Shown here: positions 40,134-46,666 of the stretch, piece by piece
Layout of the letters: every line of letters begins with the position of its first letter
Numbering within the stretch: the stretch's first letter is position 1
From: Candidatus Limnocylindrales bacterium
GTDB lineage: Bacteria; Moduliflexota; Moduliflexia; Moduliflexales; JAUQPW01
Direction of reading: 5' to 3'
Assembly (NCBI GenBank): GCA_035559535.1
Contig: DATMBG010000040.1
Location: 62,001 to 126,000, forward strand
Length of the DNA stretch: 64,000 nucleotides
The notes under the pieces: generated by a model
Database searches by the model: none
Seen by the model: the letters and a program-made list of their open reading frames with translations, nothing else
What the model was told of the DNA's origin: nothing
Position numbers and translations under genes: made by a program

Positions 40134-40301
40134 AATAACATCCATTGATAGTGTATAACGTAAAACTGTTAGTACGAGGAACGGGAGCGAGGTCAAAGGT
40201 TATAAAGATGAATCCTAGAGAGGATAATCTCTTTGACTTACAAACTCCTCGTAATTTCGCTTCTCGTAATAACAGGAGGCCCTTCTAAGGGAAGTAAGCC
40301 T

Positions 40302-41273
40302 ATGTCTAAACTACCTCTTACGCTTGCATGTTGGGATTACGACCGGGTTAAACCCTTGATGCTCAAGCAAGTAGAACCTGAAGGAATTGCTTTAAATCTC
40401 TTGCCTTATGCACCCGACGATTCGGTCTGGAGAATGGTTCGAGGACAGGAATACGATGCTTCAGAGATGACCATGGGAACCTATGTCCTTTTAAGATCTT
40501 TAGGACAGGCTCCTTACATTGCTATTCCGGTATTTCTGGCCCGATTCTTCCCCCATTCCGGTATTTTCGTCAATACCAAAGCCAATATTCATGAACCTGC
40601 AGATCTGCGAGGCAAAAAGGTAGGAGCTCCTCAATATCAAATGACCACAGCGGTCTGGACTAAGGGAATCCTTCAGCATGATTATGGGGTCATGCCGGAA
40701 ACCATAAACTGGTACTTGGGACGGGCCGAAGTTGGACTCGATCTTCCACCCAATATAAAGTGGCAACTGATTCCCCAGGGAACCGGCAAGATGCTGGCGG
40801 ATTTACTCATTGAAGGAGAATTAGATGCGTTATTCATGCCTCGGGTTCCACCGAAATTCAAAAATGGCCCTCCTCATATCAAACAACTCTTTGCCAATCC
40901 CAGACAACTTGAAATCGAGTACTACAAGCGTACAGGTATCTTCCCCATTATGCACTGTGTGGTCATTAAGGAATCTCTTTATCGAGAAAACCCCTGGATT
41001 GCTTTCAGTTTGTATCGGGCTTTCTGTAAAGCTCGGGATATCTGCTATGAAGATCTGGATCAGACGCTGGAAGGACTGAAATATATGGTTCCCTGGTTAG
41101 ATATGCATATGAACGATGTCCGTCAAATTTTGGGAAAAGATTTCTGGCCCTACGGGATCAAAGCCAATCGGAAAGTGTTGGAGACCTTCATAGAATATAT
41201 GTTAGAACAGCACCTGATCAAGAAGAAACTTTCGGTGGAAGAGTTGTTCTGTGAGACTACCCTGGATACCTGA
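40302..41273 (+). CDS. 4,5-dihydroxyphthalate decarboxylase-like protein (periplasmic-binding-protein fold)
   Basis: 323 residues from the ATG at 40302; a TTG 23 codons upstream would add a hydrophobic stretch made from repeat-like sequence and was rejected. The N-terminus LTLACWDYDRVKPLMLKQVEPEGI, then YDASEMTMGTYVL, then GIFVNTKANIHEPADLRGKKVG, matches the family of Pht5/4,5-dihydroxyphthalate decarboxylases, which share the fold of NMT1/ThiY substrate-binding proteins. Absence of a signal peptide supports a cytoplasmic enzyme. No other aromatic-catabolism gene is near, so either an orphan decarboxylase or a binding protein is possible. Confidence 0.82.
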   Translation: MSKLPLTLACWDYDRVKPLMLKQVEPEGIALNLLPYAPDDSVWRMVRGQEYDASEMTMGTYVLLRSLGQAPYIAIPVFLARFFPHSGIFVNTKANIHEPADLRGKKVGAPQYQMTTAVWTKGILQHDYGVMPETINWYLGRAEVGLDLPPNIKWQLIPQGTGKMLADLLIEGELDALFMPRVPPKFKNGPPHIKQLFANPRQLEIEYYKRTGIFPIMHCVVIKESLYRENPWIAFSLYRAFCKARDICYEDLDQTLEGLKYMVPWLDMHMNDVRQILGKDFWPYGIKANRKVLETFIEYMLEQHLIKKKLSVEELFCETTLDT

Positions 41274-41356: not shown

Positions 41357-41532
41357 CTACCGAAGATGAGGGAAGAGAGTCGAAGAGGCGCTTCCCTCGT
41401 CGGTCTCAAACCGATACGCCTTATCGATCTGAACCCACGGCAACTCCTGTCGCCGCCGTGTTGCGTGAGTTTCTTCTCCACCCCGAGCCGCGCTGCAAGT
41501 CACGCTTCACGTGTCCCAGTCTTGTGGCTCAT
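41357..41532 (-). pseudogene. DUF899 (thioredoxin-like) gene remnant
   Basis: From the ATG at 41532 the frame reads MSHKTGTREA, then TGA, then LAARLGVEKKLTQ. After a frameshift it continues as RRRQELPWVQIDKAYRFETDEGSAS to a TAG at 41357. This matches the start of DUF899 proteins, which begin MSHK-GTREEWLAAR and continue with a (L)PWVR-DK-Y-F motif; the tryptophan codon has become TGA. The rest of the gene is missing. It lies just past the end of the integron-like array. Confidence 0.5.
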
Positions 41533-41577
41533 CACCGTTCTTATCTCCCTCTGGTTAGTTGTCAAACCTGTCAGGTG

Positions 41578-41681
41578 GTCTAACGGCAAAGGCTAAGTTG
41601 ACGAGAAGGGGGGGAACGGGACGTGGTTCTCAACCCCTTCCCCCACCGCCCCCTTCCCATCAGCTTCAGCGTGTGTTAGAC
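41578..41681 (-). other. attC site 1 (integron recombination site, 104 bp)
   Basis: Read on the minus strand it starts GTCTAAC (41681-41675, R'') and ends GTTAGAC (41584-41578, R'), a perfect match to the RYYYAAC/GTTRRRY rule. Next to these, ACGCTGAAGCTGA and TCAACTTAGC pair with one extra base, as in the L''/L' arms of attC sites. It begins 5 bp after the HepT stop codon. Confidence 0.75.
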
Positions 41682-41686
41682 TGTTT

Positions 41687-42031
41687 TTACGGATTCTCCC
41701 GTTGCAAGATTTCTTCAATTTCTCGGCGAAGTAAAGGAATCTTATTGGTTACTACATCCCACACGATATCATAATCCACGCCAAAATAATCATGTATGAG
41801 CCGATCCCTCATGCCAGCTATCGCTCTCCACTCTACTTGGGGATAACGTTGCTTCAGATCAAGGGGAACTTTCTTTGTCGCTTCCCCAATGATCTCCAAA
41901 CTCCGTACAAAGGCCCGCTTAAGCGTCTCATCCTGATCAAACTGTACCTTACTTAATCCCTGTACCTTGGCTGTAAGATAATTGGCCTCCTCAAGGATAT
42001 GTCGAAGGTACTCAATTGCCAAAAGTGACAT
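41687..42031 (-). CDS. hepT: HEPN toxin of an MntA-HepT toxin-antitoxin pair
   Basis: 114 residues from the ATG at 42031, chosen because AAGGAGG lies 6 bp upstream. It is an all-helical HEPN domain with the RNase motif R-x4-H-x-Y in [17 protein letters not shown] (about residues 85-95), where the tyrosine is the residue that MntA adenylylates in studied systems. HepT cleaves RNA or tRNA when freed. The start overlaps the end of the mntA gene by 20 bp. The pair is bounded by attC sites on both sides, so it forms an integron cassette. Confidence 0.9.
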
Positions 42032-42329
42032 ATTCAACCTCCTTGAGGATATGGGGACCAATATAGGGACTCAGGGCTTCTGGAGTCACAAGCTCTACCC
42101 GGCGATGCAATAACTCTTCCAATAAGAAGGCGAGATTCATGAAGTTGTCAAAGGTCTTTTGGCCCGGCTCAAACTCAACTAACAAATCTACATCGCTCTG
42201 GTCATGCGGCTGCTCGCGCACAAAAGAACCGAAAAGCCCCAACCGCTTTACCTTGAGCTTCCGAAGCTGTGTACGGTGTTCAGAAAGTACTTCTAAAATA
42301 TCCTGTTTAGTTTGTACAACCTTATTCAT
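42012..42329 (-). CDS. mntA: MntA-type nucleotidyltransferase antitoxin
   Basis: 105 residues. The minimal nucleotidyltransferase motif is intact: [23 protein letters not shown] (GS about 34-35 and the DxD at about 46-48, with VEF carrying on). MntA adenylylates the HEPN partner HepT and so silences it. The start codon is 23 bp from the preceding attC end and has no strong Shine-Dalgarno site, as is usual for the first gene in an integron cassette. HepT follows with a 20-bp overlap. Confidence 0.9.
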
Positions 42330-42351
42330 TGCTATTCGACTTTCATAGACA

Positions 42352-42411
42352 GGCTAACAGCTCGCCGTTCGGCTACCGACGAAGCCAGTCGGCTGCAGTG
42401 GCTTGTTAGGT
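42352..42411 (-). other. attC site 2 (60 bp)
   Basis: On the minus strand it begins ACCTAAC (42411-42405), continues AAGCCACTGCAGCCGAC, and ends GCTGTTAGCC with GTTAGCC at 42358-42352. R'' fits RYYYAAC exactly, R' differs from GTTRRRY at one position. Central stems CCGAC/GTCGG and GCC/GGC give the imperfect palindrome expected. Size is that of classical short attC sites. Confidence 0.7.
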
Positions 42412-42585
42412 GATACCTCCTTTTTCTTGGTTTTTGCCTAGATGCTGCGCTTTGAAAGATATGCCTGATAAGCGCTCTACCGCATCCTTACCCCCTTCAT
42501 TATTACCGTAACGTCTTTTGTGTATCATTTCTTTGGTAATCTTAACACTCAGATTATCTTTTGTAAGTGGAGTTTTTTCATACAT
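42406..42585 (-). CDS. 59-residue hypothetical cassette protein
   Basis: The ATG at 42585 opens a 59-codon frame, MYEKTPLTKDNLSVKITKEM and onward, basic and soluble, with no family I recognise. Its stop codon TAA is the one inside ACCTAAC, the outer box of attC site 2. Genes whose stop overlaps the attC are characteristic of integron cassettes, and this is the main reason for believing such a short frame. An AT-rich run (TATATATATATAATG) sits immediately upstream. Function unknown. Confidence 0.55.
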   Translation of the reverse strand: MYEKTPLTKDNLSVKITKEMIHKRRYGNNEGGKDAVERLSGISFKAQHLGKNQEKGGIT

Positions 42586-42730
42586 TATATATATATAAAA
42601 TCCATATCCCTCTTGTAAGACAGATAAAGGGAATTTTGCCAGAACTCCTTACTCGGTTACTCCTACTCCAAATACATGGGTTGCTATTATTTCGATTTTA
42701 TGAATGGATAGCTGAGCCGTCCCCACCCGC

Positions 42731-42829
42731 CCCGCTGGCAAAACTAACCTGACTAACCAGCCACCCTCGCAGGCAGAACAAAGTGGTGAAAAGCACAAGG
42801 ACGGGAATCAGCTCCAGCGTGGGTTAGCC
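42731..42829 (-). other. attC site 3, degenerate right end
   Basis: On the minus strand it begins GGCTAACCCACGCTGGAGCTGA, shown in short: GGCTAAC (42829-42823) then CACGCTGGAGCTGA, closely matching the left arm of attC site 1 (TAACACACGCTGAAGCTGA). The right arm (TCAGGTTAGTTTTGCC) resembles that of site 1 but the final GTTRRRY box is not clear. It lies 59 bp after the end of the HNH frame. Confidence 0.55.
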
Positions 42830-42888
42830 TACCGCTCGTCCTTTCGGAAGAGGTAGAACCTCTCCCCTTTGCGCCTTCTCAGACATTT

Positions 42889-43401
42889 TCATGATGAGGT
42901 GAGTGATAACCACTCTTTAGAGTAAATGTCAAGAACTCCATCCATGTTCGGGTCTTTCAAGTCGAGCGTACCTTGCATCTCATAGATGTAATAGGCCAAC
43001 TCGAGGAATTTAGAGAGAACCAGCTTGGGAATATCGTCCAGACGTTCAGATCCGTACTACTTCGAGTTGCATTTCTTACACGCGCAGACACAGTTATCAG
43101 ATGAGTCAAGGAGGGCTGTAATTCTGGAAGCAACCCCTGCTCTTGAGACTGGGATAATATAATCAGTGCTCAGACTGCCAGTGGCCCTACAGTAAACGCA
43201 AACCTTCCCTTTCTCTAGTTCCTTCTCGTAGTCTCGTATGGATGAAGACCAGCTCATCTCACTGGATTCGAGCTTCTTGTAGCGAGAGATCACAAAGCCG
43301 TAATTACCCTCAAAACCGGCAACTTGAGTAATAAGCGGGGCATACTGCCGGTAGATAAGGCGTCGTACCGTGTCAACGTATTTTGGGGGCTTGAGAGGCA
43401 T
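42889..43401 (-). pseudogene. HNH endonuclease gene interrupted by an in-frame amber codon
   Basis: From the ATG at 43401 a frame of 114 codons ends with CVYCRATGSLSTDYIIPVS ... CACKKCNSK at a TAG (43059-43057). The Cys-x2-Cys pairs, the DYIIP segment and CNS are those of HNH nucleases, although the usual DHI histidine is a tyrosine. The same frame stays open for 55 more codons after the TAG (YGSERLDDIPKLVLSKFLEL, then MQGTLDLKDPNMDGVLDIY) to TGA at 42889, a C-terminus that fits this HNH family. One nonsense change therefore splits the gene; both the lost histidine and the stop suggest decay. Confidence 0.7.
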
Positions 43402-43445
43402 ATCGACCGCCTTCGATCCTCATAGTCATGGCTTTTCAAGCAGCG

Positions 43446-43537
43446 GGCTAACAGGCAGTTCCCCTGCGAGCGGAGCGAGCCGGGTGTACCTTCAGGGTTT
43501 GTGAGTGCGAAGCAGAGCACCTCACAAACCAAGTTAT
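43446..43537 (-). other. Possible attC site 4 (right end clear, left end uncertain)
   Basis: The minus strand ends GCCTGTTAGCC with GTTAGCC at 43452-43446, 45 bp before the HNH start, the usual cassette spacing. Upstream lies a hairpin GGTTTGTGAG/CTCACAAACC (about 43494-43528). The matching outer RYYYAAC box is not convincing (CAATAAC at about 43537). Confidence 0.4.
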
Positions 43538-43867
43538 TGTATAGTTTCTGGATAACTCCACGACGTTGGAAGGCTCCCCGGGTCTCTATGCGGCAGCAGG
43601 CTCTCTGATTTGAGGTCGCTCGCCGGTGCCAGGACCTCCCACATCGTCCTTTGTCGGATTATATTCCATACCTAAATTCTTAACAAGTTTTTTCTGCTAT
43701 TTTATCTTCTTCTTTCTGTATATCCTGTCAGGTAGAAGATGATCTGGAAAACTATGTCACTTCAGGAGAATACCTTAGGCTCAATAGCTCTCCAATCTTA
43801 CAAACCTCCTTTGAGACTCGTTTAATGGAGTTCAGGTGCTATCTGGAAAAGATAAAACCGGGTTTAT
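43538..43867. other. Intergenic region at the array end
   Basis: No firm gene. A 27-codon frame on the minus strand (43669 to 43586, MEYNPTKDDVGGPGTGERPQ and on) might be a further tiny cassette gene, but nothing else supports it. The half near 43680-43867 is AT-rich and featureless. Confidence 0.3.
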
Positions 43868-46666
43868 CTATCGGAAGAGGATATTCCATCCCCCGTCCTT
43901 AGGTCGCCAGGTTGCCAGGTCTATACTTCCATTTCCATCATAGTCGGCGGGTACAGGAATATCTCCCGGTTGACCCCCTGGAATTACCTGGGAACCGCCG
44001 CCGGAGAAAAGGATATACCAGTTTGCCTCCCCGGGTCGCCAGACTGCTATATCTGCCTTTTTATCTCCATCGTAATCGGCGGGTACGGGAATATCTCCCG
44101 GCTGGCCATGCCGGGTGATTAAGAAGCCACCGGTAGAAAGAAGAATATACCAGTTTCCCTCATCGGGTCGCCAGACTGCTATATCGATCTTCCCATCTCC
44201 GTCATAGTCCGCCGGTACCGGCGTATCCCCCGACCGACCCCATTGAATACTTATGGGATTTTTAGTATCTGGGGACTGGATGGTCCATTTACCCAGAGAT
44301 GGTCTCGAAAAGGGCGTAGGGTTGAAGGTGGCCAGATCCAGGATTCCGTTTCCGTCATAGTCTCTAGGAACAGGAACATCTAAAGCATCTCCAAATTGGA
44401 AGATTTGAGTCGCACCCTGAGAACTTAAGATATACCAGATGGCTTCGGAGGGTCGGAATACGGCAAAGTCTGCCTTTCCATCCCCATCATAATCCCCGGG
44501 TACGGGTCGATCTCCCAATATCCCCCAGGGCTGAATGGTAAGAAAACCGGTACTTCCTAAAACATACCAGTTTCCTTCCCGGGGTCTCCACACGGCAATA
44601 TCCGCTTTTTGATCCCCATCGTAATCTTGAGGTACCGGGATATCTCCGAAGATCCCCCAGATCAAAAGAGGATTTGATATGGGAATCGGGCTCAAGTTGA
44701 AGTTTTGGGTTAGCAGGTTACCGTCAGGGATCGTGACAGTACTCGGGGTTGAAGTCTGATAGCCTGGTGCCGAAGCGATCAGGGTATAAGTCCCTGGTGG
44801 TAGAAGTCGGGAGTAATTTCCGGTTTCATCCGTGGTGGTTTCAAAGGTATGGGTTCCATCATCGGCCATAATACGGGCTCCTGCAAGGGGGCCACTTGAA
44901 ATAGTATCGGTAACTACTCCTTGCAAGGTACCCTGGGGGGGTGGGGTACACGAAGGAAATCGGAAAGTACCTATACGGGTATGCCAGCCTGTTTTGCTGG
45001 TGGTTGGGTAGTATTCATTGGTATACCAGAAGGTGCAATCGTCTAGGGGATCAACGGCCAGCATTGAGTAATCCCCCCAACGGCCAGAAAAATCCTTTTG
45101 TGAACCATTTCCTGTCATAAGCACCGCTTCACCTCGAAACAATCCGTTGGGTGGATCGGTGGCGAGTCGACCTGCGTATCGGATGGAAGGAAAAGTTGTC
45201 GTACTGGAAACGCTATATCCGACGGCGAGGTTCCCATCCTTATCCATGGCCGCACTTCCCATCCAACGATGGTTGGTATCAGGGGCAAAGCTGGCCTGTT
45301 CCTGGATGAAAAAAGATCCACCGGGGAGGTTACGACGTATCTCATAATAACGAACTCCAGCATGGTTTTTATCTACATCTACAGTATGATTAACCACCAG
45401 CGATTCATGGGTACCAAAATTTCGATACTGTAAGCGGAACATCAACCGGTCCGAGATAACCGATAATTTTGCGTTTGTCCCGGGTTGGGGAATACAAAGA
45501 TCTCGGGGATTTGCCGAAGACGTACACAGAAAAACAGGATCAAAAGGAGCCGTGATAAGAGGGCTTTCAGGCCTTTCGATAAAGGTAGATCCGGCGGGAT
45601 TGAGAAAATCAGCATGAAACTCAAAGATCCTCAAAGCATCCCCGGGGGCTCCTGCTTCATCGGCTACACCGACAACGAAATAGTTGGGCGTACCGGCCGG
45701 TGGAGGGGAACCATCCAGATCGGCAGGAAGCATACCAAGTAAGGAAGGATCTAAAGAGTTCAAATCAAAATAAATAAAGCCGGCATCCGGGTCCCCTGCC
45801 AGCATTTTGGTCCGATCTAAAGCAAACACCCCTATACTGGCATAGGGACCAAAAAAGGGATCGAACTGATTAACAGTCATGTAATAACCATCCGGCCATA
45901 CTCCTAATTTGGGATAATCGTTAAACTTGTTATTGGGCATAATAAAATCATATCGAAAGTAAGCTCCCGTTGGATCATTGGTTTGAGAAATTGCAATACA
46001 CTCATGGTAGGGTGGTACATCAATGGCACCGGGTGTAAGAAGAAAAGCGAATTGACTGATCAACCACCGATCGGCCAGGGGATCATAGAGAACAATGGGA
46101 TCTCCTTGATCTACCGTCTCACAGACCCCTCCAAAACCGGCAAACAATAAACTAATCGGAAAAGGACCGAATAAAGAGAGTCCTGTTTGTTTATCAAAAA
46201 CTTCGATGAGTGTGTTAACAGCCTGAACATAATGCCTGGGACCTACATCTCCGTTGGTATCGGGCGGAAGACTTCCAAGTCCTATAACTGCCAGATTATC
46301 TGCATTACTGATTCCTTCAAAGCTCTGTAGGGGAGCCGGCATGAGATTAAGAAACAATTCACGTTGAACTACCGGATCCCCGGATGGGGCCAACCTGTTT
46401 TCAACCAGGGGCAATCGATAGATCGGAATCTCACGGACCTTGTTTTTCCCCCCGGTCCCGGGTTTAGGCAAAATCGGTTTGAGATGGCGAATCGGTGGGG
46501 ATATATCGAAATGAGCAGCATACCCTACCCGGGGAACCAGATTCTTTTTTACAAGATTTTTCTCTACCTTCTCTTCTATGGGAGGACGTTGGGCATAGCC
46601 CGGAATTAAATAAGCACTTATAGCCAGAAAAACCAACAAAGTTAGAACAAAAGACCAGACTTTCAT
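43868..46666 (-). CDS. Secreted FG-GAP/VCBS-repeat protein with carboxypeptidase-regulatory-like domain
   Basis: 932 residues with a signal peptide (1-25, ending GYAQ). Residues about 110-570 form a large uncharacterised domain with beta-propeller-like strands ([26 protein letters not shown]). Residues about 590-670 are a carboxypeptidase-regulatory/PEGA-like beta-sandwich ([34 protein letters not shown]). Residues about 687-932 are six roughly 40-46-residue repeats of the form [22 protein letters not shown], each holding a DxDGDxxxD calcium-binding loop. Such proteins are exported and often bind polysaccharide or surfaces. It is monocistronic. The repeat DNA is itself near-identical between units. 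Confidence 0.88.
   Translation of the reverse strand: [932 protein letters not shown]
43871..44662 (-). repeat. Six tandem coding repeats of about 130 bp
   Basis: The units encode the [14 protein letters not shown] repeats of the FG-GAP protein. Units 1, 2, 4, 5 and 6 are very similar; unit 3 is the most diverged and has a small insertion. Confidence 0.8.

Follow-up and report, generated by a model that had tools for sequence, protein, structure and literature searches.

Clusters of attC sites without an integron-integrase are termed CALINs (Cury et al., IntegronFinder 2.0, PMC9024848), and the loss of a recognisable intI gene is listed as one of their origins (PMC8618304). As attI sites outside class 1 are seldom recognised by software (PMC9024848), loci like the one described here are filed as CALINs. 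Related situations are known from Xanthomonas, in which integrons with inactivated or lost intI occur along with CALIN loci (PMC12444791). These resemble the genome studied here in their ancestral platform, in the decay of intI and in the presence of several array loci per genome; however, the Xanthomonas integrase is consistently found at one locus (ilvD), whereas our host genome has decayed intI copies at several loci and attI at more than one. An integron remnant of Treponema phagedenis has likewise kept cassettes and attC sites while intI is gone (PMC3607928), but the part of that account available to us describes neither an attI or intI remnant nor an exchange in a sibling at the same crossover points, in both of which it differs from our locus. 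Finally, Desulfobacterota, Methylococcales and other groups have complete sedentary chromosomal integrons (L075-L111) with a long-form IntI of the same widespread family as the integrase of the host genome (50-69% full-length identity); at our locus, this gene has been deleted.

Within the window, the whole stretch of 64,000 nucleotides that was analysed, an initial annotation had noted a CALIN-like array. This description stood in that a cassette array without a nearby integrase gene lies among ordinary chromosomal genes. As in CALIN elements (PMC9024848), attC-bounded cassettes lack a neighbouring integrase; unlike these, the locus keeps an attI along with a promoter and the first part of intI and thus represents a former complete integron. 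Because these elements survive, it is directly legible that the array arose through loss of intI.

All statements on the host genome (5.6 Mb, 58 contigs) rest on sequence searches of this assembly. For comparison, we used three relatives, one from the same genus and the others from the same order, all genomes being metagenome assemblies whose contigs tend to break at arrays. The relative of the same genus, here G001, is a sibling species (MAG JAUQPW01), and its contig C34 corresponds to JAUQPW010000043.1.

Results

An attI site and the 5' end of intI adjoin the cassettes

The locus consists of an attI, a Pc-like promoter, a remnant of the intI 5' end and the cassettes, and lies among chromosomal genes. 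Over 258 bp, the attI region (43530..43786, minus strand) shares 83% identity (E 6e-68) with an attI on contig C50 of the same genome that adjoins an intact intI. Its crossover point follows G43530 (ACAATAACTTG^), and the final 30 bases before this point are identical in G001 (30/30). Thus, one hallmark of an integron, an attI with its crossover point adjoining the array, is present. Next to it, on the plus strand, a long-form intI has left a piece of its 5' end (43711..43818), identified by tblastn (E 3e-6, 56% identity) and by a three-way alignment. Counted along the 503-aa ORF of C50, this remnant spans approximately residues 5-40, and its start codon has changed from ATG to AGG. A functional intI in cis is absent, as about 36 codons remain and TIGR02249 has no match on contig C40. 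The match to attI together with the remnant of the first intI codons beside it identify the locus as an integron minus its integrase gene.

A promoter scan revealed a Pc-like sigma-70 promoter directed toward the cassettes (TTGTTA-N17-TATAAT, 43658..43686, minus strand; 10/12 matches), with counterparts in the C50 attI region and in G001. Judged by its sequence, this promoter would transcribe the cassettes. The first cassette begins with the R' box GTTAGCC (43446..43452, minus strand). Between this box and the attI crossover point, a 77-bp insert forms a predicted double hairpin (43453..43529, minus strand; fold z -2.7). The insert adjoins attI without the normal cassette start TTRRRY, which counts against reading the locus as an integron. 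A second such element, alike in architecture but not in sequence, occurs in G001 at another integron locus (L152, about 405-490); both double hairpins measure 77-80 bp and lie exactly where attI crosses over.

The array holds three cassettes and the stub of a fourth

Cassette 1 carries an HNH endonuclease pseudogene (42889..43401, minus strand; Pfam HNH E 1.6e-5), the translation of which shows an in-frame TAG at 43059-43057 in an otherwise open frame of 171 codons, with the reading going on to a TGA at 42889. This nonsense mutation, like attI, the promoter, the intI remnant and the 77-bp double hairpin, goes beyond the initial annotation. Cassette 2 contains a 59-codon ORF (42406..42585, minus strand) for which the libraries searched gave no family match or relatives.

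Cassette 3 comprises two genes on the minus strand, encoding an MntA-type adenylyltransferase antitoxin (42012..42329; Pfam NTP_transf_2 E 4e-12) and a HepT-like HEPN RNase toxin (41687..42031; Pfam HepT-like E 9e-29). The GSF-x-DxD motif of MntA and the RxxxxHxY motif of HepT are both intact, so that the pair of MNT nucleotidyltransferase and HEPN RNase required of a type VII system is in place. Domain pair, gene order and motifs are those of described MntA-HepT (HEPN/MNT) modules (PMC7641770). In contrast to these, the pair forms a two-gene cassette and stays under the NCBIfam equivalog cut-offs (MntA_antitoxin 43.9 bits, HepT_toxin 39.7 bits; cut-off 60 for each). A search of the open-access literature yielded nothing direct on MntA-HepT in integron cassettes. 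MntA-HepT may act as a toxin-antitoxin pair and stabilise the stretch.

The last cassette is a truncated DUF899 relic (41385..41583, minus strand) with 75% identity to L067:15638-15863 of G001, where the copy is recognised by Pfam (DUF899, E 7e-20); the relic is therefore common to both species. On the left, the locus is flanked by a gene for a surface-type protein with FG-GAP and CarboxypepD_reg domains (43868..46666, minus strand; 94% protein identity in G001), and on the right by one for a periplasmic substrate-binding-like protein (40233..41273, plus strand; 99% protein identity in G001).

The genes are placed as expected for cassette genes, in agreement with what had been proposed: hepT ends at 41687, 5 bp ahead of attC site 1, the 59-codon ORF has its TAA stop within R'' of site 2, and mntA starts 22 bp past site 2.

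The attC sites are of unequal quality

The initial annotation had counted three to four attC sites. This count did not hold, as the array has one strong site (site 1), one weak site (site 2) and one half site (site 3). Site 1 (41578..41681, minus strand; 104 bp) was borne out in full: its outer R''/R' boxes, GTCTAAC/GTTAGAC, pair 7/7, L''/L' pair with one extra base, and the inner stem is bulged. Shuffling the 2.6-kb region 1000 times never reached its structural score of 17.2, and shuffling the whole window did so in 1/150 cases. A search for further sites in the same genome, as had been proposed, recovered a 100-bp twin with 87% identity at C55:3252-3349. A structural finder with contiguous arm pairing proved too strict and was replaced.

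As covariance model we used our own, R1, which is based on 22 attC sites, taken either from class 1 integrons or from arrays unrelated to these, and recovers known sites at 33-51 bits. The proposed covariance check of the region was passed only marginally with this model, as there was one weak match, site 2. R1 is insensitive to the long-loop attC type of this lineage and misses both site 1 and its clean twin on C55. Since it misses the terminal attC of C55 as well, its silence was not counted against site 1. An Rfam scan of the region gave one chance miRNA match and nothing else.

Site 2 (42352..42411, minus strand; 60 bp) has the coordinates originally given. Nothing else in the region scores higher with the covariance model, yet the match of site 2 is weak (13.7 bits, with E values of 0.024 over 2.6 kb and 0.59 over 64 kb), and its R', GTTAGCC, departs from GTTRRRY at one position. 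In site 3 (42807..42830, minus strand), the left arm is that of site 1, as had been noted (88% identity over 24 nt), with GGCTAAC as R'' (42829-42823), but a convincing right arm was sought and not found, the best covariance score being 4.4 bits. Folding of the bottom strand, also suggested at the outset, was notable for neither site (z -0.9 for site 2, +1.3 for site 3).

Cassettes differ between sibling species, with breakpoints at the crossover points

Both flanking genes are present in G001, so that the locus is orthologous in the two species. Left of the attI crossover point, 105/120 bases are identical between the window and G001, while identity to the right is at chance level. Conversely, 92/120 bases are identical to the right of G41584^TT in R' of site 1, with identity at chance level to the left. 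This position (41584/41583) is the crossover point observed for site 1. The interior between the two points is wholly different in G001, consisting of a cassette of about 8 kb that encodes DNA-methylase- and restriction-endonuclease-type domains. As aligned, both breakpoints are canonical integron crossover points, and the comparison shows a site-specific replacement of cassettes since the species split. Accordingly, another hallmark of an integron was found, namely cassette exchange with one end at attI and the other at G^TT of R'. The examination of homologous regions, which the initial annotation had named as a check, thus strongly supported the cassette array.

The G001 insert (L067 7500-15640), with its methylase and restriction-type genes, is unusually large for a cassette position. 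Short, nearly identical G+C-rich repeats occur many times within its coding region, and the insert also has an intein-like stretch.

Dating the loss of intI by shared lesions failed. As the lesions are not common to the two species, the loss cannot be dated.

The host genome harbours further integron loci

The search for intI that had been proposed returned an intact copy at the C50/C55 locus and several decayed ones, on C42, C34, C22, C51 and C37 of the host genome. The C50 integrase is intact (TIGR02249, 380 bits against a cut-off of 265); when aligned with VchIntIA (2A3V; 263 bits), it displays the integron-specific region and conserved catalytic residues. Contig C55 continues C50 by an exact overlap of 141 bp, giving the order intact IntI, attI, hydrolase cassette, attC, cassette with an amidase and a Phd/PIN toxin-antitoxin pair, attC and HU gene. 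The first attC, after the hydrolase cassette, scores 41.9 bits; the terminal attC, which is the twin of window site 1, has a fold z of -5.4, and its inner stem is paired, leaving two bases extrahelical. In G001, C173 matches this locus by the family of its terminal attC and by the HU gene. There, intI is broken, and the cassettes, which encode an NhaA-type antiporter as well as an MtrA-like protein, differ from those on C50/C55. Together, the comparisons of both loci indicate that two integron loci are common to the two species and that the cassettes differ at both.

The intact IntI is a long form (about 480-500 aa), encoded at L006 1495-3006 (minus strand). At its N terminus, it is extended by about 130 aa that resemble a second SAM-like DNA-binding region, and no description of this extension was found in an open-access literature search. 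Directly downstream of the intact intI, a second attI copy is fused to an internal piece of intI (L006 1020-1320), as would result from a tandem duplication of the module. On C51, a palindromic insert interrupts another decayed long-form intI plus attI, and the array side there has a DUF899 cassette gene similar to that of the window (L019 5500-8700). Near intI fragments, attC-like sites occur at L018 7331-7431 and L016 4442-5522, which indicates that small arrays or remnants are scattered over several contigs. Upstream of long-form integrases in other phyla, the contiguous-arm finder recovered mostly no attC sites.

Discussion

Our findings leave little doubt that the locus is a chromosomal integron that has kept its attI, a cassette-facing promoter, three cassettes and the stub of a fourth, while its own intI has been deleted. 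The homology of attI and intI, the exact crossover boundaries, the replacement between species and the placement of the genes all argue for this reading. Against it stand the interior cassette boundaries at sites 2 and 3, which are without comparative support, the missing right arm of site 3, and the yield of just one weak site in the region by our own covariance model. The platform for gene capture is genuine yet partly decayed. An integron integrase would have brought in the cassettes by joining attI (after ...ACTTG) with R' of attC sites (G^TTRRRY), and the stretch from attI to R' of the last cassette has been replaced in one or both lineages since the divergence from G001. The intI gene probably once worked in cis at this locus and was later lost by deletion.

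It is conceivable, if rather unlikely, that the locus is still an active platform, on whose attI and attC sites the intact C50 integrase acts in trans. The C50 integrase itself, with its integron-specific region, its catalytic residues and its similarity to VchIntIA, would be suited to such a role. Moreover, the attI core is conserved at the window locus, the terminal attC is common to this locus and to the integrase's own array, and the two species, neither of which has intI in cis here, carry different cassettes. However, the lesions in intI are not common to the species, so that the cassette exchange may predate the losses of intI, and the decayed HNH gene, the degraded sites and the 77-bp insert at attI suggest inactivity. 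For the genome as a whole, we regard it as doubtful that the several attI platforms, all but one without a working integrase, form a dispersed multi-locus integron served in trans by the single intact long-form IntI.

Alternatively, the array could be a CALIN that arose when cassettes were inserted off target into a secondary site and never was an integron. The few cassettes, the poor quality of some sites and the lack of a complete integrase gene would fit, but such an origin is refuted by the 258-bp attI homology and the intI 5' remnant adjoining the first cassette, and we consider it highly improbable. Least credible of all, with hardly any probability left, is that the sites are chance palindromes between unrelated accessory genes in a defence or toxin-antitoxin hotspot swapped by homologous recombination: covariance scores are indeed weak, and MntA-HepT and restriction-modification genes are common in all sorts of hotspots, but a homologous attC occurs in a second array of the same genome, and neither chance palindromes nor ordinary recombination would yield breakpoints exactly on both integron crossover points.

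Taken as an integron that has lost its integrase gene, the locus is a well-documented case of a known kind, and the presence of several integron loci per genome is its most unusual aspect. The origin of integrase-less arrays has hitherto been argued mainly from absence; here, it can be read from an attI, a stump of intI and the replacement in a sibling species. Since one of its integrases is intact while several are broken, and at least two orthologous loci exist in two species, this genome would provide a good natural test of whether integron platforms are maintained in trans.
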